From the IMG/VR virus record IMGVR_UViG_3300010430_000300, positions 1 to 33,119 of that record: a stretch of 33,119 nucleotides of DNA. One strand, given 5' to 3'. Source of the DNA: a virus. Position 1 is the stretch's first letter; every line of letters starts with the position of its first letter. Below the pieces are notes generated by a model. The model saw only the letters and a list, made by a program, of their open reading frames with translations, was not told the DNA's origin and searched no databases. Positions 4,867-33,119 of this stretch are shown here, piece by piece. Made by a program: the position numbers and the translations under genes.

Positions 4867-6051
4867 ATGGTTAACAGGATCGTCGCCCACGGGGAGGAGT
4901 CGCCAGCCGCATTAGTGGCGAACCCGGAGAATTGGCGCAAGCATCCAAAGGCCCAACGGGCGGCGCTCGGCGGCATCCTCTCTGAGGTTGGCTGGGTCCA
5001 GTCCGTTATCGTCAACCAGCGCACCGGGCGGCTAGTAGACGGCCACCTGCGGGTTGAGGTCGCGGCGGCCAACGGGGAGGATATGGTCCCGGTCGCCTAT
5101 GTGGATCTCAGCGAGAACGAAGAGCGGGCCATTCTCGCCACGCTCGACCCCCTGGGGGCGATGGCCGACAAGGATCGCGAGCAGCTTTCGGCGGTTCTTG
5201 AGAGCATCGAATCCGACGACAGCCTAGGAGCCGTGCTCTCGGCGGTAGCCGCAAAGAACGGCGTCGAGTATTCGATACGGGAAGTCGCCCCGCCCACGGC
5301 CAAGAAAACATCAGACGAAGAGCTAGCCGACCTCCTGAAGAAATGGGAAGTGAAGACCGGGGACCTATGGTCCGTGGGCAGGCATCGCGTCAAGTGCGGG
5401 GATAGTACGGACCCCGAGGCTGTAGCCGCGCTGCTGGACGGAAAGCGGCCTGGGATGATGGTGACAGACCCGCCGTATGGGGTTAGCTATGACGCCACCC
5501 AGCGCCCAAGAAGTAGTTCGCATGGCAAAGTGACGAACGACGATCGAGCCTCGTGGGGCGAGGCGTGGGAGCACTCCCCGGCGAAGGTCGCGTATGTCTG
5601 GCACGCAAGTGCGCTAGTCTCCGCTACCGCAGATGCGCTCAAGGCTAGCGGCTATGAGATGCGCGCACACATCATTTGGAGGAAGCCTTTCCTCATACGA
5701 GGGCGGGGGCATTACCACTACCAGCACGAGTCTTGCTTCTACGCAGTTCGCAAGGGCGCAAGCGCTGGCTGGCGGGGGGATCGGACGCAATCGACCGTCT
5801 GGGATATCGACCACAACCAGCCAATTGACGAGAAGACTCCGCACAGCACCGAGAAGCCCGTCGAGTGTATGGAGCGCCCGATCCGCAATCACTCCGGCGA
5901 TGTTTACGATCCGTTCCTCGGCAGCGGCACCACGCTCATCGCCGCCGAGCGACAGAACCGCACCTGCTACGGCCTGGAGATCGAGCCCAGGTATGTGGCA
6001 CTGATCCTCGATCGATGCTTGTCGGCGGGGCTGGAGGTTAAGCGTGGCTAA
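4867..6051 (+). CDS. ParB-like N-terminal domain fused to beta-class DNA methyltransferase
   Basis: A 394-residue protein. Residues about 15-95 are a ParB/Srx-like domain (NPENWRKHPKAQ, then LVDGHLR at 56-62). A linker follows, then the methyltransferase: the catalytic motif DPPY at 201-204 precedes the AdoMet-binding DPFLGSGTT at 348-356, an order typical of beta-class enzymes that methylate adenine N6 or cytosine N4. This ParB-MTase fusion is frequent in phages just upstream of the terminase. It may protect phage DNA from host restriction or mark it for packaging. No cognate restriction gene is present, so it is an orphan enzyme. It starts almost at a predicted transcription start, and its last eight bases overlap the next gene. 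Confidence 0.92.
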   Translation: MVNRIVAHGEESPAALVANPENWRKHPKAQRAALGGILSEVGWVQSVIVNQRTGRLVDGHLRVEVAAANGEDMVPVAYVDLSENEERAILATLDPLGAMADKDREQLSAVLESIESDDSLGAVLSAVAAKNGVEYSIREVAPPTAKKTSDEELADLLKKWEVKTGDLWSVGRHRVKCGDSTDPEAVAALLDGKRPGMMVTDPPYGVSYDATQRPRSSSHGKVTNDDRASWGEAWEHSPAKVAYVWHASALVSATADALKASGYEMRAHIIWRKPFLIRGRGHYHYQHESCFYAVRKGASAGWRGDRTQSTVWDIDHNQPIDEKTPHSTEKPVECMERPIRNHSGDVYDPFLGSGTTLIAAERQNRTCYGLEIEPRYVALILDRCLSAGLEVKRG

Positions 6052-13949: not shown

Positions 13950-15050
13950 ATGAACATGCTACAAGCCACGGGCGGCCAGTCTGCGAGCGCCGGGTTCACC
14001 GCCCCCACCGTCGAAAGCGCCAAGCGCCGCTTGGCCTTCGCGAAATCCATGGACGCCTGGGAGAGCGGACGGCTTTCGGGCCGCCAATTCGTCCAAGAGG
14101 CGATGAGTACCGACGACTTCCCGAACGTTCTCGGCGACACGCTGAACCGCGAGGTCCAGGAGGCCTATCGGACCTGGCCGAAGATCTGGGAGGCCCTGGC
14201 GGCCAAGCGCCGCGCCAAGGACTACCGGACGCTCAAGTCCTTCACGCCCAACTCGATCAACGGGCGCCTGGCCAAGGTCGGCGAGTTCGGCGCGAACTCC
14301 ACGACTCAAAACAAGGCCGACCGTACCGCCGTGACCTACTCGGTGGAGGACTACGAGGGCCATGCGTCCCTGTCGCACAAGGTCTTCATCAACGACGACG
14401 TGGACGAGTTCTCGCGAATCCCGACCGATTTCGCCGAGGCGGCGGTCCACACGGAGGGCTTCCAGTTCTCCTCGACCTACGTCAACGCCTCCGGCCCGAC
14501 CGGCCTTACGCAGCTGACCAGCAACCCGGTCTTCGGCGTCACCGGCCTGAAGGCCGCGTTCACGCAGATCCTCAAGTCCACCGATAGCGGCACCGGCGAG
14601 CCGATCATGATCGAAGCGCCGGTCTTGGTCATTGGGCCGGGCCTGGCGATCGACGCCGCCGAGGTCATCAAGGCCACCACGATCGAGATGAACACGGCAG
14701 CGGGCACCCGCAATCTGTTCACCGAGAACTGGGTCAAAACCATGATCGATAAGGTCGTGGTCGATCCCTACATTCCGATCATCGCCTCCTCGAACGAGGA
14801 CACCATGTGGTGCCTGATCGCGCAGCCCAAGCTGGGCCGCTCGGCGTTTGAGGCCGCGTTCTTGAACGGCATGGAGCAGCCCCGCATCCTCATCAAAGCG
14901 CCGACGGCGCAGCGAGCGGGCGGCGGCGATCCGGCCTTCATGGATCGATCCTTTGAAGGCATGACGGTCGAGTATCTGGTGCGCCACACCTTGGCATTCG
15001 CGAAGGTCAACGCGCAGTACGGCTTCATGTCCAACGGTTCGGGCTCCTAG
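13950..15050 (+). CDS. Major capsid protein (Mu gpT-like, HK97 fold)
   Basis: A 366-residue protein with AGAAGGAGA upstream of the ATG. The N-terminal helix and segments such as DTLNREVQEAYRTWPKIWEA, GEFGANSTTQNKADRTAVTY and YEGHASLSHKVFINDDVDEF resemble Mu-like major head subunits with an HK97 fold. It follows the protease/scaffold and decoration genes and precedes the connectors. A strong GC hairpin lies directly after the gene, consistent with high and separately tuned expression. There is no obvious N-terminal delta domain beyond about 60 residues, which agrees with a separate or nested scaffold. Confidence 0.85.
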   Translation: MNMLQATGGQSASAGFTAPTVESAKRRLAFAKSMDAWESGRLSGRQFVQEAMSTDDFPNVLGDTLNREVQEAYRTWPKIWEALAAKRRAKDYRTLKSFTPNSINGRLAKVGEFGANSTTQNKADRTAVTYSVEDYEGHASLSHKVFINDDVDEFSRIPTDFAEAAVHTEGFQFSSTYVNASGPTGLTQLTSNPVFGVTGLKAAFTQILKSTDSGTGEPIMIEAPVLVIGPGLAIDAAEVIKATTIEMNTAAGTRNLFTENWVKTMIDKVVVDPYIPIIASSNEDTMWCLIAQPKLGRSAFEAAFLNGMEQPRILIKAPTAQRAGGGDPAFMDRSFEGMTVEYLVRHTLAFAKVNAQYGFMSNGSGS

Positions 15051-24168: not shown

Positions 24169-24262
24169 CCTCGTAGGTTCGGACCTCCCCATCCTCATCG
24201 ACCACGAAAACGCTCTCGGCGCTTCCGACCTTCATTCGGACCAGCGTCGGGGGCGTTTTCAT
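24029..24262 (-). CDS. Possible small protein at the convergent junction
   Basis: A 77-residue leftward frame whose ATG overlaps the stop of the RHH gene as AATGA, suggesting coupling. The first 35 residues read naturally (LVRMKVGSAESVFVVDEDGE, a beta-hairpin-like pattern). The second half lies opposite the 3' end of the rightward gene at 23545-24168 and looks like low-complexity Pro/Glu/Ser text, as antisense shadows often do. Its start is also inside an inverted repeat that may be a terminator. Real but short, or spurious; both remain open. Confidence 0.35.
   Translation of the reverse strand: MKTPPTLVRMKVGSAESVFVVDEDGEVRTYEVTPGRGSRKGSPASEPTEPPEALDSSCEDRPAASPSEDPEPRCPDR
24206..24260. terminator. 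Bidirectional terminator-like inverted repeat
   Basis: GAAAACGC at 24206-24213 pairs perfectly with GCGTTTTC at 24253-24260, and inside it CCGAC at 24225-24229 pairs with GTCGG at 24246-24250. Both strands thus end the stem in a TTTT-containing arm, as in two-way terminators between converging genes. It sits between the ends of the rightward late operon and the leftward regulator operon. Confidence 0.5.
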
Positions 24263-24582
24263 TTGCCCGCCGCTGCTCGTAGGACGCCGCGCAGTCGCTT
24301 GTCGCCAGCCCGCAGCACCCGTAGAAGCTCCTCGACCAGCGCGCGCTCAGGGCCGCTCGTGACGGCCACGGATCGGGCGGACCTCCCGTGGCTCAAACTC
24401 GTCAACATCGCGCGGGCGTCGGTCATGCGATCCGGGGGGATCAACTCGTAGAGTTCGGCGGCCTCGCGCATCATCGCGTCTACCGTAGTGCCGCGCTCTT
24501 CGGCTAGAGCCGTCCAGTGCTCCGCCTCCTCGACCGTGCCTCGGAAGAAAATGCGGCGGGGGTTCTCGGAAACTTTGGTCAT
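24259..24582 (-). CDS. Ribbon-helix-helix regulator (second leftward RHH protein)
   Basis: A 107-residue protein starting at ATG 24582, five bases after the stop of the upstream leftward gene. A start 26 codons further upstream would overlap that gene and is not preferred. NPRRIFFRGTVEEAEHWTAL gives a beta strand and first helix, followed by AEERGTTVDAMMREAAELYE, a typical RHH/CopG second helix. The C-terminal part is helical and basic (ERALVEELLRVLRAGDKRLR). It may bind DNA as a repressor or as the antitoxin of an unseen toxin; no toxin gene is adjacent. Confidence 0.6.
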   Translation of the reverse strand: MTKVSENPRRIFFRGTVEEAEHWTALAEERGTTVDAMMREAAELYELIPPDRMTDARAMLTSLSHGRSARSVAVTSGPERALVEELLRVLRAGDKRLRGVLRAAAGK

Positions 24583-24587
24583 TGCTC

Positions 24588-25058
24588 TCAGTGGCCCTCG
24601 ATCTTTTCGAGCTTGTATTTGGTTGTTGCGTCCTGGAGGATGGCGGCCTCGAATGCCCAAACCTCCCCGGCTGCCAGCCCACTCACGTTGGCGAAGGCGG
24701 TCCCAACCTTCTCATCGGCGTCGTTCAAGAGCGTAAAGGTGACGCTGACATAGCTCTTATCCTCGCCCGAAGTATTCCGAATTCTCCCGACGATGAGGCG
24801 ATTTCCGAACTGGCCTAGCTTGGATGAGCGCTCCAGTAGCTCAAATTCGGCGGCTTTCGCCGCAGCTAGTCGCTTTGCTTCAGCCTTCCTGTCGGCCTGC
24901 TCGTGCCTCTCCTTGAAACGCGCATCTTCCTGCCTAGCCCGCTCAATAGAGGCTCGCCGCTCGGGCGTCGGGCCGAACATTGAGTCCAGCAAGATGACGC
25001 CAACTATAAGCAATAGGGGGACGCCGAGGCATCCACCGACCACGGTTCTGTTTTTCAT
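24588..25058 (-). CDS. Membrane-anchored protein with coiled coil and FxLyD-type domain
   Basis: A 156-residue protein with a TGAGG site nine bases before its ATG. Residues 7-25 form a membrane helix (VVGGCLGVPLLLIVGVILL), 32-75 a charged coiled coil (RRASIERARQEDARFKERHE), and 84-150 a beta domain (NRLIVGRIRNTSGEDKSYVS, FTLLNDADEKVGTAF) matching the FxLyD extracytoplasmic type. It should sit in the inner membrane with the beta domain outside. It is expressed leftward with two RHH regulators, which suggests lysogeny-type expression and a role such as superinfection exclusion. The role is inferred. Confidence 0.65.
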   Translation of the reverse strand: MKNRTVVGGCLGVPLLLIVGVILLDSMFGPTPERRASIERARQEDARFKERHEQADRKAEAKRLAAAKAAEFELLERSSKLGQFGNRLIVGRIRNTSGEDKSYVSVTFTLLNDADEKVGTAFANVSGLAAGEVWAFEAAILQDATTKYKLEKIEGH

Positions 25059-25129
25059 GAAAATAGCCTCAAAATCCCTCTAGATTTTACTGAAATGAAG
25101 CTCGTTTCTCGTTGAAAATGTGGACCTTC

Positions 25130-25158
25130 TTGCAATACGGGGGCGCTTGCTGTATAAC
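25130..25158 (+). promoter_or_regulatory. Rightward sigma70-like promoter inside the leftward operon
   Basis: TTGCAA at 25130-25135 and TATAAC at 25153-25158 are 17 bases apart. A transcript from here would run right, through a small ORF at 25270 and antisense to the first RHH gene (25328-25669). It could make an antisense RNA or an alternative early transcript. A weaker leftward match (TAATTG, 17 bases, TATACA) overlaps the same place on the other strand. Confidence 0.4.
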
Positions 25159-25214
25159 CCTGACCGAGGCTCGCAATTAGGCGAACCCCCGCAGAAACCC
25201 CTGGATTTTTCAGG

Positions 25215-25231
25215 CGCGCACTGCGCGCCAC
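25215..25231. repeat. Perfect GC hairpin in the noncoding gap
   Basis: GGCGCGC and GCGCGCC surround the three-base loop ACT. It lies in the gap (25059-25269) between the membrane-protein gene and the first RHH gene. No T run follows on either strand, so it is more likely a regulatory or RNA structure than a terminator. Apart from the promoter and this hairpin I see nothing else in the gap. Confidence 0.4.
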
Positions 25232-25269
25232 TCCTTGTCCCCCAGGAGAAGTAGCCGAGGAGGGATGGG

Positions 25270-25440
25270 ATGGATTCATCATTTCGCAGAGAGCAATTCC
25301 GCGCTATTCGTATCGCCGTGAGGGCCATCAGGGTTCTCCTCCAGGATCTCGAACGACAGATTCGATCGCTCGAACGAGGACAAGCGCGTCCTTCCTGCGA
25401 GCCGGAGAAGCTGAACGGAGCGCACTCAGGACGGACCTGA
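25270..25440 (+). CDS. Possible 56-residue rightward protein antisense to the RHH gene
   Basis: ATG 25270 has a strong GGAGGG site just upstream and lies about 105 bases after the 25130 promoter. The product is basic and helical (MDSSFRREQFRAIRIAVRAI, then VLLQDLERQIRSLERGQ). From 25328 it runs opposite the 3' end of the first RHH gene, so part of it could be a shadow frame. The promoter and ribosome-binding site make it worth listing. Confidence 0.3.
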   Translation: MDSSFRREQFRAIRIAVRAIRVLLQDLERQIRSLERGQARPSCEPEKLNGAHSGRT

Positions 25441-25669
25441 TAACCCTTTCCTCTTCGTTTGATTTCGGACTCCACTCGTCGTCCTCGGGCGGCTCCGGGG
25501 CCGGTGCGTCCGGGTCCACGGACTTGATGTAGTCCCGAAACGCTCGCTCGCATAGCGAGTCCCATGAGCGCACCTGCGCCCTGCGCTTCTTCTGTTCATG
25601 GAGGAAGTCGCTCACCGCCGCGTGGGTAGTGGGGCGCAGGCGTATTGTTGTCCGGATCTTTTCCGCCAA
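25328..25669 (-). CDS. Ribbon-helix-helix regulator (first leftward RHH protein, divergent switch)
   Basis: A 113-residue protein from TTG 25669. KIRTTIRLRPTTHAAVSDFL gives the DNA-contacting strand and first helix, and RSWDSLCERAFRDYI the second helix of an RHH fold. A Pro/Glu/Asp linker (PDAPAPEPPEDDEW) joins a helical C-terminal domain (RVIRSVLSALRSASPARRKD) that may drive oligomerisation. It is transcribed away from the rightward early operon, whose first gene is another RHH protein, across a region with inverted repeats. By analogy with CI/Cro pairs it may repress the early promoter. No clear leftward promoter was found. Confidence 0.68.
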   Translation of the reverse strand: MAEKIRTTIRLRPTTHAAVSDFLHEQKKRRAQVRSWDSLCERAFRDYIKSVDPDAPAPEPPEDDEWSPKSNEEERVIRSVLSALRSASPARRKDALVLVRAIESVVRDPGGEP

Positions 25670-25682
25670 GGCAAATCTCTAC

Positions 25683-25711
25683 TTGACTCTCTTGCTGTCG
25701 CAGTGTAATGT
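25683..25711 (+). promoter_or_regulatory. Rightward early promoter overlapping operator repeats
   Basis: TTGACT at 25683-25688 and TAATGT at 25706-25711 with exactly 17 bases between. The -10 lies within the repeat element at 25696-25711, so a bound regulator would block RNA polymerase. The transcript would start near 25717 and carry the third RHH gene and the early operon. Confidence 0.6.
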
Positions 25712-25745
25712 AGTCATGACAGCAATCCGCTGCGACAACATTACA
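25696..25745. repeat. Operator-like split inverted repeats between divergent RHH genes
   Basis: TGTCGCAG (25696-25703) followed by TGTAATGT (25704-25711) reappear as their reverse complements CTGCGACA (25730-25737) and ACATTACA (25738-25745), each half inverted in place rather than as one long palindrome. Between them lies the palindrome GTCATGAC (25713-25720). Arrays of short half-sites fit binding of RHH dimers side by side. The array overlaps the rightward -10. Confidence 0.6.
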
Positions 25746-25766
25746 GCCCGCAAGGACCGAGAGAGT

Positions 25767-25937
25767 ATGCCACAGAAGCCGCGTCGAATCACTACACGCA
25801 TGAACGAGGACCTGTCCAATCGGGTCCGAGCTTTCCTCTACCGAACAGGGCAGCGAGACACCGACCTCCAGGACGTTGTAGACGAGGCCGTTGAGCGCTG
25901 GCTGAAGGATGCACGGGAAGCAAGGAAGGCCGCCTAA
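25767..25937 (+). CDS. Ribbon-helix-helix regulator heading the early operon (Cro-like position)
   Basis: A 56-residue protein from ATG 25767 with AAGGA ten bases upstream. PRRITTRMNEDLSNRVRAFL gives strand and first helix, DLQDVVDEAVERWLK the second helix: a minimal Arc/CopG-type RHH protein. An in-frame ATG at 25716 would lie at the predicted transcription start and lacks a ribosome-binding site, so the shorter form is preferred, though a leaderless 73-residue form is possible. It opens the rightward early operon opposite another RHH gene and likely binds the same operator. Confidence 0.7.
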   Translation: MPQKPRRITTRMNEDLSNRVRAFLYRTGQRDTDLQDVVDEAVERWLKDAREARKAA

Positions 25938-25939
25938 CC

Positions 25940-26380
25940 ATGCGTAAACCTTGCCACAGATCCGAGTCCGCATCTACGGGGGAAACCCGCCCTGTTTTTG
26001 ACGCCGACCGCGTTCTACGCGAGCGCTGCCAGGCCATGCGCCTGGATTACGAGGAATGGAAGCAAGCCGAGAGCGGCTCACGGGCCGAGCTTGCGGACAT
26101 CCTCTCGGAACTCTCCGAGCGCCGGGTGACCGAGCGGTCCTTGGAGAAATGGCTTTCCCCCCGTAGCAATCGACCGATGCCCCCCTGGTGTGAGTCGGCC
26201 TGGTGCACGGCGACCCGCTCGACGCGAATCAAGAACGTTGACGCGGGTCGCCTCGGGGGCCGGTTCGTCGGGCCTGACGACGTGCGGCTGATCGAACTCG
26301 GAAAGGCTGACTTGCAGGCCTACGCCTGGGGCCAGCGGCACAGGAAGATGCGCGACGAGCTTGGGCTGGAGGCAGCGTGA
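25940..26380 (+). CDS. Probable HTH-type phage regulator
   Basis: A 146-residue protein starting two bases after the RHH gene. The middle (ELADILSELSERRVTERSLE, KWLSPRSNRPMPPWCESAWC) reads as a helix-turn-helix of the kind in which a helix ends in KWL/RWL and a Pro-rich loop precedes a Trp-helix. The C-terminus DVRLIELGKADLQAYAWGQ is helical. It may regulate early transcription. No named family recognised. Confidence 0.55.
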   Translation: MRKPCHRSESASTGETRPVFDADRVLRERCQAMRLDYEEWKQAESGSRAELADILSELSERRVTERSLEKWLSPRSNRPMPPWCESAWCTATRSTRIKNVDAGRLGGRFVGPDDVRLIELGKADLQAYAWGQRHRKMRDELGLEAA

Positions 26381-26676
26381 ACGCGCTACGCACTCCCGAG
26401 CGCGTCGAGGCGGCTGTCTCGGAGGCCCTGGACCGTCTCGGCGATGACGACAAGCTCCGTGAGCAGCTTTCCATGCTCTGGGGGCGCCTGGTCGCCGACG
26501 TAGAGCTTAAGGCTCACCGCGCGAGAGTCGAGGCGGACGTACGGGCGCGGTTCCGCGTCACTCGTCGAGACCTTGACGACCGCCCCGATTCCGATGCATG
26601 GCCGGGAGAGAACGAGCCGCACGGATTCCACCTGACCGATATGCCATGCGGGCCGTACGACAGGGGGCCGCAGTAA
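26377..26676 (+). CDS. Unknown small protein
   Basis: A 99-residue protein from GTG 26377, overlapping the previous stop as GTGA. Helical and charged (RVEAAVSEALDRLGDDDKLR, VELKAHRARVEADVRARFRV), ending in a loose Pro/Gly/His-rich tail. The stop overlaps the start of the 24-residue ORF as TAATG. Function unknown. Confidence 0.6.
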   Translation: MNALRTPERVEAAVSEALDRLGDDDKLREQLSMLWGRLVADVELKAHRARVEADVRARFRVTRRDLDDRPDSDAWPGENEPHGFHLTDMPCGPYDRGPQ

Positions 26677-27548: not shown

Positions 27549-27814
27549 GCGCCCTTCGCCAAGTCTGCGACCTTCGCCCCCCGTCTGGCGAGATCGTTTC
27601 TCAATCTGTGCGCGAGCGGATGTACCGGAAGCTCAGCCGCCAGACAGAGGCCGATAGAGCCGCCCTGCGGCGCTTGGACGTAGAGGCGCGAGCAATGGAG
27701 CGGCAGGAGCGAGAGAGGGCCTACAAGGCCTCCAGGAGCGCGGATCAGATCCGCGAGACGACCCTCCGGTTCTACCGGATGCGGGATTGGCTGAGAGCGC
27801 GAGGAGCGAAGTGA
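27545..27814 (+). CDS. Basic helical protein, unknown
   Basis: An 89-residue protein from ATG 27545 (ATGA overlap); a start five codons upstream is possible but breaks the overlap pattern. Long charged helix (ADRAALRRLDVEARAMERQE, RERAYKASRSADQIRETTLR) typical of coiled-coil or nucleic-acid-binding accessory proteins. It immediately precedes the replication gene. Confidence 0.6.
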   Translation: MSALRQVCDLRPPSGEIVSQSVRERMYRKLSRQTEADRAALRRLDVEARAMERQERERAYKASRSADQIRETTLRFYRMRDWLRARGAK

Positions 27815-28626
27815 GCAAGGCCCCCCAAGGAATGATGTGGTACCCGGAGGCGTGGCTCTCCTCCCCCGACGTGATGGTCATGTCTCCCGAGGCGCGATCG
27901 GGGTACTTCGACATCCTCTGCGCCATGTGGTTAGCCGGTGGGCGGCTCAAAAACGACGACAAAACCCTCCAACTTTTGTCGCGTTTAGATCGAAAAACTT
28001 GGCGAAAGGTTCGCGATTCAATCGTTAGTAAACTTCACGAAACGGAGGACGGTTTTGTCCAGCAATCGCGCCTTTCTGAGGAGTTCGCAAGGACCGAAAA
28101 ACTCCTAAGCGATAGAAAAGAAGCAGGTAAGGCCGGAGCCAAGAAGCGATGGGGTGGCGGTAGGCCCAATGGCAAAGCTAATGGCAAAGCTAATGGCGGT
28201 GCTATCGATTTGCCACCCGGTTTGCCAATACAAACCGAAACCGAAACCGAAACAAGAGAGAGAGGAAGACCTCTCTCTACCCCCCCAAACCCCCCTGTCG
28301 GGGGGCCGGATGAATGCAGGCGGATCTGGGATCAGATCCGAGTGGCGTACCCGAATGGACACAACCCCAAACCGGCCCTGGCCGCTCAGGCGTTCTTCGG
28401 TCGAATGATGGCCTTGGGTGGCGGGCGGGAGCCCGAGGAGTGGGCCGCTCAAGCGCTCGCCGACCTTAAGGCGAAATGGCTACCGGCGTGGAAGGCGGGG
28501 CGGATGGTTCCCGATCTCCACACCTGGGCTCGGGACTACGACCCTGATGCGGATATCTCACCGCCCAACGCCGAGGGTGATGAAAAACTCAGCCGCGCTC
28601 TACGGGCTGCCGGGGAGGCCGCCTAA
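27811..28626 (+). CDS. Replication protein, DUF1376-like N-terminus (initiator candidate)
   Basis: A 271-residue protein from GTG 27811, overlapping the previous stop as GTGA. Residues 8-60 (MMWYPEAWLSSPDVMVMSPE, YFDILCAMWLAGGRLKNDDK) match the DUF1376-type start found in phage replication proteins, a winged-helix-like domain. A linker with NGKANGKANGGA and ETETET repeats follows, then a C-terminal helical domain (WAAQALADLKAKWLPAWKAG) with a DYDPDADISP end. The gene body has lower GC and repeats between 28168 and 28305 that could form an origin, as in lambda O. Early position, before an annealase and nuclease, supports replication. Confidence 0.68.
   Translation: MSKAPQGMMWYPEAWLSSPDVMVMSPEARSGYFDILCAMWLAGGRLKNDDKTLQLLSRLDRKTWRKVRDSIVSKLHETEDGFVQQSRLSEEFARTEKLLSDRKEAGKAGAKKRWGGGRPNGKANGKANGGAIDLPPGLPIQTETETETRERGRPLSTPPNPPVGGPDECRRIWDQIRVAYPNGHNPKPALAAQAFFGRMMALGGGREPEEWAAQALADLKAKWLPAWKAGRMVPDLHTWARDYDPDADISPPNAEGDEKLSRALRAAGEAA
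28168..28305 (+). repeat. Possible origin region: iteron-like repeats and hairpins inside the replication gene
   Basis: Three 12-bp units of AATGGCAAAGCT type at 28168-28203 (the last diverged) contain TGGCAAA at 28170 and 28182; its reverse complement TTTGCCA occurs at 28209 and 28221, again 12 bases apart. A CCGAAA triple repeat (about 28235-28252) follows, then a perfect 9-bp hairpin (AGAGAGAGG at 28257, CCTCTCTCT at 28270) and a C6/G6 hairpin (28290-28305). Confidence 0.45.
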
Positions 28627-29198
28627 TGCAACCCGATATCCACGTCTGCCTGGAGCAGGTAGGGCGCTTCGCTTGCCTCGACGGCTACTACCGGCAAGAA
28701 GAGCAGCGGGTCGAACTTGCTCGCGCCCTGAGGGCGGCTGCGAGGTCCGAAGCCCACGCTAAGGCGATCGTTGACGAAGTGATACATAGCGAGACGAGAT
28801 GCCCGAAGCCAGCCCATTTCTACGGGCTGAACCAAGCTCAGCCGGGCGCCGACGAGGGGCCGCTGTGCAAGCTCTGCGGCGGCACGAGGCCATCGGATCG
28901 CAAGATCACCTGGCCCTACTTGGTGACCGCTCGCGACGGGCGGGAGATCGAGCGGAAGCGGATGCCGCTAAAGCCCGCCGAGATCGTCGTTGACGGCGAG
29001 GCTGTAGGGGCGGAGTCGGACCTGTACTGCTACGCGGTCGAGAGGGCCGCGCGGAAGTTTAAGGACGCATGGTTTGACCGCGTCGAGAAGGCGCAAAAGA
29101 TTCCGCCCGAGCATGTGCGCGGGCGGTTGGGGCAAGCGTGGTACGAGGTCCAGGAGCCTTGCCCGCGATGCTCCCCGAATGACAGGAACGGAGGATAG
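28626..29198 (+). CDS. Zinc-binding early protein, unknown
   Basis: A 190-residue protein whose ATG overlaps the replication gene stop (TAATG). LCKLCGG at about 80-86 and EPCPRCS near 178 supply two Cys-X2-Cys pairs. N-terminal helices (ALRAAARSEAHAKAIVDEVI) and a C-terminal helix (YAVERAARKFKDAWFDRVE) frame them. It could be a replication partner such as a helicase loader or primase-like accessory, but no enzymatic motif is seen. Confidence 0.65.
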   Translation: MQPDIHVCLEQVGRFACLDGYYRQEEQRVELARALRAAARSEAHAKAIVDEVIHSETRCPKPAHFYGLNQAQPGADEGPLCKLCGGTRPSDRKITWPYLVTARDGREIERKRMPLKPAEIVVDGEAVGAESDLYCYAVERAARKFKDAWFDRVEKAQKIPPEHVRGRLGQAWYEVQEPCPRCSPNDRNGG

Positions 29199-30324: not shown

Positions 30325-30599
30325 ACGCAGGAGCAAAGGGATACCGCAACGAGCGGAAGACGATCGCTCACTTTGAGGCCCTGGGTTACGAGTGCGTTCG
30401 CTCCGGCGGTAGCAAGGGCGTCTTCGATTTGGTCTGCATCAGCAGCACGGATATCGTCCTGGCTCAAGTCAAGAGCAACCGCAACGTGGGGCCTGATGAG
30501 CGGGAGGCTATGAGGCAATTTCCGGCCCCGCCGAACGCTCGGAAGCTGTGTGTGCGGTGGGACGACCGGAAGCGACAGCCGCGAGTGACGGAAGTCTAG
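30321..30599 (+). CDS. Holliday-junction resolvase-like nuclease
   Basis: A 92-residue protein of the small PD-(D/E)XK type: Glu11 in the first helix (NERKTIAHFEALGYECVRS), GSKGVFDLVCI with Asp36, and AQVKSNR with Gln49 and Lys51. Most family members have Glu where this has Gln49 (E-V-K); some phage relatives carry Gln. A basic beta end (LCVRWDDRKRQPRVTEV) follows. It would cut branched DNA during phage recombination or packaging, next to an Erf annealase. Confidence 0.72.
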   Translation: MNAGAKGYRNERKTIAHFEALGYECVRSGGSKGVFDLVCISSTDIVLAQVKSNRNVGPDEREAMRQFPAPPNARKLCVRWDDRKRQPRVTEV

Positions 30600-30637
30600 G
30601 CGGTGGGGGATCGAGAGGGAGTGGAGGTGGAGATCGA

Positions 30638-31639
30638 ATGCCAGGACTAACTGGAGCAATGGCCCGATGCGCGGACGCCGTGTCTTACCTGCAAAAGTCG
30701 GGGCAGTACCGAGGCGGCGGGGGCGGTAGCTTCGCCTACTCGACTGAATCGGACGTGAAGCGCGAGTTCCGGCGAGCCTTCGCGCGGCACGGGATTCTCT
30801 TCTCGATCTCCGAGGAGTCCATCGAGACCAACCCGCACAAAAAGGCGGACGGGTCCAACTCGGGATACCTGACGACTGTCAGCCTGAAGTTCACGCTGAC
30901 CCACGTCGAATCCGGCGAGTGGCTGGAATTCCGAGGCAGCGGTACGGGCTACGACTCGACAGATAAGAGCGTCGGGAAGGCGTACTCCTACGCGGTCAAG
31001 ACGTGGCTGCTGAACTCGTTCCTTGTCGAGACCGGAGAGGACAACGAGCGCGACGACAATGACGAGCAGATCCACGCGGAGGCGATCGAGGATTCGTTCA
31101 CTCAACTCCGCAAGAAGCTGATGGCGATGCGGCCCGCCCAGGAGAAGGGGAAGACGGGGCCAGGCGCGCGCGCCTACGCGGATGCACTGGCGAAGTTTAA
31201 GTCCCGCTCGGGCCACGAGGTAACCCACACGTCTGAGTTCGTCAACCGGGCCGATGCTGTAGCTTGCCGAATTTTCCTGGAGCGCCTGATCGAGCAGTGG
31301 GTCAAGGAAGACTTCGAGGCCGAGGGGCCACAGAAGGCGTCCATCCACGGCGTGGACCCTCCCGACCCCAAGAAATCGCGGCGCACCAAGGCCGCCAAGA
31401 AGTCCCCGTCCGCTGGTTCTCCCGACGGGACCGAGCAACCCGAGCAAGCGTCGCGGGATGCAGACTCGGGTTGCTCGTTAGCGGACTTCACGGAGGAAGA
31501 GCAGCAGATGGTTCGCGAATGGCTCGGCCAGGAGCACGGACCCCAGACGCCGGAAGAGGCGGACGCCTATCTCGCCAAGTGCGGGAAAAACCCAGGCCAG
31601 GTGATCGAAGAGATGCGCGCGTGGAGGGAGTCGCGATGA
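30638..31639 (+). CDS. Erf-family single-strand annealing recombinase
   Basis: A 333-residue protein from ATG 30638 (AGGTGGAG upstream); the frame open from 30548 would overlap the resolvase. The N-terminal 180 residues show the Erf pattern: VKREFRRAFARHGILFSISE, LTTVSLKFTLTHVESGEWLE, GSGTGYDSTDKSVGKAYSYA and KTWLLNSFLVETGEDNERDD. A Lys/Arg/Pro linker (PKKSRRTKAAKKSPSAG) then leads to a short C-terminal domain (DFTEEEQQMVREWLGQEHG). It pairs complementary single strands during circularisation or recombination repair. Confidence 0.87.
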   Translation: MPGLTGAMARCADAVSYLQKSGQYRGGGGGSFAYSTESDVKREFRRAFARHGILFSISEESIETNPHKKADGSNSGYLTTVSLKFTLTHVESGEWLEFRGSGTGYDSTDKSVGKAYSYAVKTWLLNSFLVETGEDNERDDNDEQIHAEAIEDSFTQLRKKLMAMRPAQEKGKTGPGARAYADALAKFKSRSGHEVTHTSEFVNRADAVACRIFLERLIEQWVKEDFEAEGPQKASIHGVDPPDPKKSRRTKAAKKSPSAGSPDGTEQPEQASRDADSGCSLADFTEEEQQMVREWLGQEHGPQTPEEADAYLAKCGKNPGQVIEEMRAWRESR

Positions 31640-32881: not shown

Positions 32882-33119
32882 GCGACAAGGATCGACTACT
32901 GACTGGCGTGATCGAGTGGAATAGGTGGCGATTCGGAGACGGCGTGGGGCATCGACCGAACCTCTCCGGGGCGGACCTCTCCGTGGCGGACCTCTCCGGG
33001 GCGGACCTCTCCGGGGCGGACCTCTCCGTGGCGGACCTCTCCGGGGCGGACCTCTCCGTGGCGAACCTCTCCAGGGCAAACCTCTACGGGGCGGACCTCT
33101 CCAGGGCGGACCTCTCCAG
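32878..33119 (+). CDS. Pentapeptide-repeat protein (3' partial)
   Basis: ATG 32878 overlaps the previous stop. After a helical lead ([20 protein letters not shown]), the frame runs into about eleven A(D/N)LSx repeats from 32959 to the window end, where it is cut. At DNA level the repeats are near-identical 15-mers (cggacctctccgggg type). Pentapeptide-repeat proteins fold as a four-sided helix; some mimic DNA and bind gyrase (Qnr, MfpA). In an early phage operon an anti-defence or gyrase-modulating role is possible, but not shown. Confidence 0.8.
32959..33119 (+). repeat. Tandem 15-bp repeats coding the pentapeptides
   Basis: About 10.7 copies of a 15-base unit based on GACCTCTCCGGGGCG, differing mainly in GGGG versus GTGG or AGGG and GAC versus AAC. 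The near identity at DNA level, including third positions, points to recent expansion or gene conversion rather than old divergence. It continues past the window edge. Confidence 0.85.

Follow-up and report, generated by a model that had tools for sequence, protein, structure and literature searches.

A candidate divergent control region resembling P22 mnt/arc at the head of a phage replication operon

A divergent pair of small genes flanking an operator-like array was found in a 33,119-base virus record (the window, i.e. the whole stretch of DNA that was analysed), and this locus closely resembles the mnt/arc region (immI) of phage P22, so that it is a good new example of such a region and not a new kind of switch. 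Its distinctive traits are the position at the head of the replication operon, an array of dyads set in 8-bp steps, and protein sequences too diverged for an Arc family match. We give about an even chance to the reading that it is a P22 immI-like divergent autoregulatory module heading the early (replication) operon. Behind this reading stand a rightward protein of the ribbon-helix-helix (RHH) kind, the stepping of the operator dyads, the divergent orientation of the genes, and their place in the operon.

Divergent genes and genome context

25328-25669, minus strand: leftward ORF, TTG start, 113 aa
25767-25937, plus strand: rightward ORF, ATG start, 56 aa, first gene of the rightward early operon
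25940-26380, plus strand: second gene of the rightward operon, 2 nt past the stop of the RHH gene, matching phrog_2345 'transcriptional regulator' (E = 3.7e-12)
26377-26676: gene with a PHROG match to 'toxin' that is very weak (E = 0.022)
27787-28626, plus strand: replication protein (primosomal / DUF1376) further down the rightward block (phrog_9327, E = 4.8e-12)
24588-25058, minus strand: leftward gene whose product has a hydrophobic segment at its N-terminus and a phrog_14275 domain (E = 2.8e-7)
24259-24582, minus strand: third RHH candidate, 107 aa, borderline

The two ORFs lie and diverge as an earlier sequence-only reading had described, and the intergenic gap between them measures 97 bp. 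Their GC content by codon position (0.66/0.51/0.68 in the leftward and 0.68/0.44/0.67 in the rightward ORF) is like that of this phage's genes, which argues that both are genes, whereas the long overlapping frame 25080-25565 (0.53/0.64/0.56) is unlike them and therefore unsupported. Upstream of the rightward ATG stands GCAAGGACC, with a Shine-Dalgarno-like AAGGA at a distance of 10 nt from the start codon; an alternative in-frame ATG at 25716, within the palindrome described below, has no such motif.

The second rightward gene gave no antirepressor match in the PHROG search, although going by its sequence it may still have that function. Further along, the rightward block holds the primosomal protein, an HNH endonuclease, an Erf-like protein, and a phrog_874 protein. 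On the other side, the leftward gene 24588-25058 stands apart from the late genes, downstream of the leftward regulator, and is possibly an accessory or superinfection gene with a placement like that of sieA beyond mnt. The gap of about 270 nt beyond the leftward regulator contains a hairpin without a U-run (GGCGCGC-ACT-GCGCGCC, 25213-25229), and the region 25060-25330 folds no better than its shuffles (z = -0.96).

With no repeats at its ends, the record may be incomplete. Searches of this possibly incomplete record turned up neither a tyrosine integrase nor a serine recombinase (resolvase) nor an HTH_3 (CI-type) repressor, and PF13614, the sole ATPase model run for a ParA-type ATPase, had no match in it. 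Elsewhere, positions 4867-6051 encode a ParB-like N-terminal part fused to a DNA methyltransferase (phrog_498, E = 8.8e-93; phrog_620 ParB-like, E = 1e-16), and the last stretch of the record (32955-33119) is made up of CTCTCC-GGGGCGGAC-type repeats that by eye look like pentapeptide-repeat coding and where the assembly may have stopped.

The two divergent proteins

The RHH profile used here combines nine cores that are known or annotated as RHH (Arc, Mnt, NikR, DinJ, RelB, ParG, MetJ, and both Edno5 proteins), with calibration on 1000 shuffles per window protein; its alignment was made by hand, and it is hence a moderate test. The rightward protein, aligned to model positions 1-38 of 39, reached 12.7 bits, a score equalled by none of its 1000 shuffles. 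Three of its four Pfam matches were to sub-threshold RHH families (ParG, RHH_6, 56B_RHH), with ParG the best of them (E = 0.006, below the cut-off), and ParG was also the best match among solved structures (E = 0.042). Pairwise tests against NikR, DinJ (p = 0.007), and the Mnt-like protein of phage Edno5 (p = 0.009) gave p values of 0.005-0.009. An AF2 model computed without an alignment (pLDDT 83.5) has helices at residues 11-27 and 32-55 and no strand in the monomer; Foldseek and VIA searches with this monomer returned unrelated helical chains only, a two-helix monomer being uninformative. Almost the entire protein is RHH core, with neither a ParG-like N-terminal tail nor a toxin-binding tail. 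Sequence comparison supports RHH identity for the 56-aa protein.

The sequence-only reading had taken both divergent genes for RHH genes, and the profile test bears out the rightward half of that proposal. The leftward protein scored -1.2 bits against the profile, with 104 of 1000 shuffles as good, and had no family above the cut-off in profile searches; its RHH-like pattern is visible by eye only. Its AF2 model, likewise computed without an alignment, is poor (pLDDT 55.9), with no strand and a helical C-terminal half. A MetJ-like reading of the leftward protein, which the long loop between its helices and the 8-bp step of the array had suggested, found no support in a pairwise test (p = 0.33), a kind of test that several pairs of known RHH proteins fail as well. 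As far as the sequences go, a divergent RHH pair at this locus is half shown. A third RHH protein had been placed in the leftward operon, and this was not confirmed: the candidate at 24259-24582 is borderline as an RHH protein (partial profile match of 3.8 bits, 9 of 1000 shuffles as good; NikA-like, E = 0.16), and the gap of about 270 nt (25059-25327) parts the leftward regulator gene from both 24588-25058 and 24259-24582.

Operator-like array and promoter candidate

25692-25745, no strand: operator-like array of three dyads with centres at 25708.5, 25716.5, and 25724.5 (8-bp step) and arms TTGCTGTC/GACAGCAA, TGTCGCAG/CTGCGACA, and TGTAATGT/ACATTACA
25696-25703, 25704-25711, 25730-25737, and 25738-25745: exact repeat elements TGTCGCAG, TGTAATGT, CTGCGACA, and ACATTACA, respectively
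25713-25720: central perfect palindrome GTCATGAC, with the same centre (25716.5) as the longest dyad
25641-25652, plus strand: CGTATTGTTGTC, possible third copy of the TGTAATGTTGTC element, within the start of the leftward gene
25683-25711, plus strand: weak rightward promoter candidate TTGACT-17-TAATGT, overlapping the operator-like array

The split inverted repeats and the palindrome reported earlier are exact, and in shuffle tests the dyads exceed chance. With 5000 dinucleotide shuffles of the gap, the best dyad had P = 0.0002 and a set of three exact pairs of 8-nt arms had P = 0.002, while over the whole window a single dyad as good is not rare (P = 0.147). It is the regular spacing that stands out: the trio of dyads in equal steps scored 31.4, against 27.8 for the best of 300 shuffled genomes at any step of 5-12 bp and 23.6 for the next-best stepped trio elsewhere in the 33-kb window. 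The three dyads have letters in common and therefore count as a single feature, not as three independent ones. Written as 8-bp boxes from 25697, the array reads GTCGCAGT, GTAATGTA, GTCATGAC, AGCAATCC, GCTGCGAC, AACATTAC. The palindrome has its sole exact copy within the window here, and its one-mismatch copies occur at chance level. The TGTAATGTTGTC-like element has four matches in the window (0.5 expected), three of them inside 105 bp, and the copy at 25641-25652 is no more than suggestive. No Rfam family matched in the window. The strongest single dyad of the window lies at 31432-31476 (centre 31454.5; GAGCAACCCGAG and CTCGGGTTGCTC about 20 nt apart), within the Erf-like gene 30548-31639.

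The rightward promoter, previously called good, turned out to match at chance level: TTGACT agrees with the consensus at 5/6 and TAATGT at 3/6 positions, together 8/12 (P about 0.34 in composition shuffles), and the pair was absent from the list of a consensus promoter scan. The same scoring gave 11/12 consensus positions in the P22 mnt-arc gap.

Search for relatives

Searches of viral contigs, phage records, plasmids, and genomes yielded no relative that includes the region. The viral contigs held no relatives of either divergent gene, of 25940-26380, of the Erf gene or of 28626-29198, nor the exact 30-nt operator pattern, and the prophage search of genome contigs, made with the two RHH cores joined and with the portal, gave nothing; the viral and genome collections were searched by exact 8-residue words, a method that misses diverged relatives. 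With the portal we retrieved two near-identical contigs from other metagenomes (L004 and L005, 99.86% identical to the window), both of which end before the regulatory region, the record of L005 stopping at window position 25323. The relatives of the DUF1376 gene (L001-L003, tblastx) have only that gene in common with the window, plus short methyltransferase-like pieces. The single tblastn match among phages, UAntarctica (E = 0.3), was discarded as noise.

Proposed mechanism and alternatives

If the immI-like reading is right, and we infer here both that the 56-aa RHH protein binds the repeats and where the promoters lie, its dimers would bind cooperatively, side by side, in 8-bp steps along 25692-25745. 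They would then cover the start of the rightward transcript and so turn down their own gene together with the regulator and replication genes that follow. Judging from its position alone, the leftward protein is probably the opposing regulator of the same region in place of Mnt; it might thus be a repressor, and the two proteins might repress each other. Against this reading stand the failure to find a relative with the region, the leftward RHH score within the range of shuffles, the chance-level promoter match, and the lack of an Arc family match for either protein.

A serious rival, although a rather unlikely one, is simple autoregulation in a lytic phage, where only the rightward RHH protein would use the operator, for a timed early shut-off, and the leftward gene would be unrelated, leaving no bistable switch. 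In its favour, the tests on the leftward protein give no evidence of DNA binding (pLDDT 55.9; 104/1000 shuffles), and searches of the record for integrase, resolvase, HTH_3 repressor, and ParA came back empty, but the divergent layout, the overlapping dyads, and the possible third element in the leftward gene fit two-sided control. Alternatively, the locus might be a true CI/Cro-type lysis-lysogeny switch made of RHH proteins only and directly controlling the replication operon. Its position at the head of that operon fits, and there is a precedent in SSV1 F55, an RHH protein in a CI-like role (PMC5569661); yet the record shows no integration or partition genes, no prophage copy was found, and the leftward protein scored no better on the RHH profile than many of its shuffles (-1.2 bits, 104/1000 as good), which makes such a switch improbable. 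We are equally doubtful of an RHH-only primary immunity switch, in which the 113-aa protein would keep the replication operon off and the 56-aa protein would lower the leftward gene through one shared 8-bp-stepped array, with no HTH-type CI/Cro pair in the genome. Of the CI/Cro-type switch originally proposed, a divergent regulator region with an operator-like array at the head of the early operon is supported, and a role in lysogeny is unsupported: the possibly incomplete record yielded no integrase, resolvase, CI-type HTH protein or ParA.

Two further readings concern functions other than phage gene control, and we hold both to be very improbable. RHH antitoxins, DinJ and RelB among them, regulate their own expression, and a toxin-antitoxin operon with an RHH antitoxin and its autoregulatory operator could account for the similarity of the rightward protein to DinJ and for the very weak toxin match of 26377-26676. 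The 56-aa protein is nearly all RHH core, though, with no tail to bind a toxin, and the adjacent gene matches a transcription-regulator family. The same gene neighbour speaks against partition or plasmid maintenance, where the rightward protein would be a ParG-like centromere binder and the repeats its centromere. ParG is the best match of this protein both among solved structures and among Pfam RHH families, and its binding sites consist of short boxes arrayed with spacers between them (PMC7308502), but no ParA/ParF-type ATPase (model PF13614) was found in the possibly incomplete record and the ParG-like N-terminal tail is missing.

Small RHH repressors are easily overlooked in profile searches, and the locus is a case of an RHH protein without a library match above the cut-off that is recognisable by its operator array and its position at the head of a replication operon. 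Should the 113-aa and the 56-aa protein both turn out to work through the shared array, the locus would extend the mnt/arc logic of P22 from an accessory antirepressor operon to the main early operon.

Comparison with known systems

The P22 record has mnt at 14519-14770 (leftward, 83 aa) and arc at 14861-15022 (rightward, 53 aa), and the 90 bp that separate them hold annotated promoters in both directions (Pant, Pmnt) with the operators Oarc and Omnt between them. Our locus shares the divergent small regulators at similar dimensions (113 aa/97 bp/56 aa versus 83 aa/90 bp/53 aa), operators in the gap (here operator-like dyads), the smaller protein rightward at the head of the operon and the larger one leftward, and, still further leftward, another gene (the accessory gene sieA in P22, the possible accessory gene 24588-25058 here). 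It differs in having no adjacent ant antirepressor but a regulator gene and replication genes instead, and in the 8-bp-stepped array; P22 immI sits in the late operon. Neither protein is similar in sequence to Arc or Mnt, and neither matches the Arc family (PF03869) even at E = 10, whereas P22 Arc and Mnt score above 100 bits. Arc and Mnt had been said to act in one arm only, which is incorrect: arc and ant are both repressed by Mnt, and Arc in turn inhibits the expression of mnt, moderates ant (PMC11016777), and autoregulates (PMC7549136).

A tblastn search of phage records found relatives of Mnt in 127 and of Arc in 100. Edwardsiella phage Edno5 has the same divergent layout, with Mnt-like and Arc-like genes across 117 bp, and its Mnt-like protein is the one weakly similar to our rightward protein; unlike here, the Edno5 pair is followed by ant and its proteins are Arc family by annotation. 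ParG of plasmid TP228, the best weak sequence match of the rightward protein, represses its own operon from an upstream operator (PMC7308502) but works with the ParF ATPase, for which the PF13614 search found no equivalent here, and has an N-terminal tail, which the 56-aa protein lacks. More generally, RHH dimers bind cooperatively at several operator sites and repress their own promoters (PMC5569661), a mode of action that matches the mechanism proposed above. In the archaeal virus SSV1, the small RHH protein F55 holds early genes off in the carrier state and binds repeated sites at early promoters and at its own promoter (PMC5569661), a situation like ours in that a small viral RHH protein lies beside repeated sites, and unlike it in the archaeal promoter system and the direct tandem repeats; that paper describes no divergent RHH partner of F55. 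For AvtR of AFV6, the site of action lies between its own promoter and the promoter of another predicted RHH gene (PMC5569661). The view that an RHH switch on both sides would be unusual is untenable given these precedents: in P22 immI the divergent regulators are RHH proteins on both sides, relatives of Mnt or Arc occur in about 100 phage records, Edno5 repeats the layout, and in SSV1 an RHH protein, F55, takes a CI-like part.
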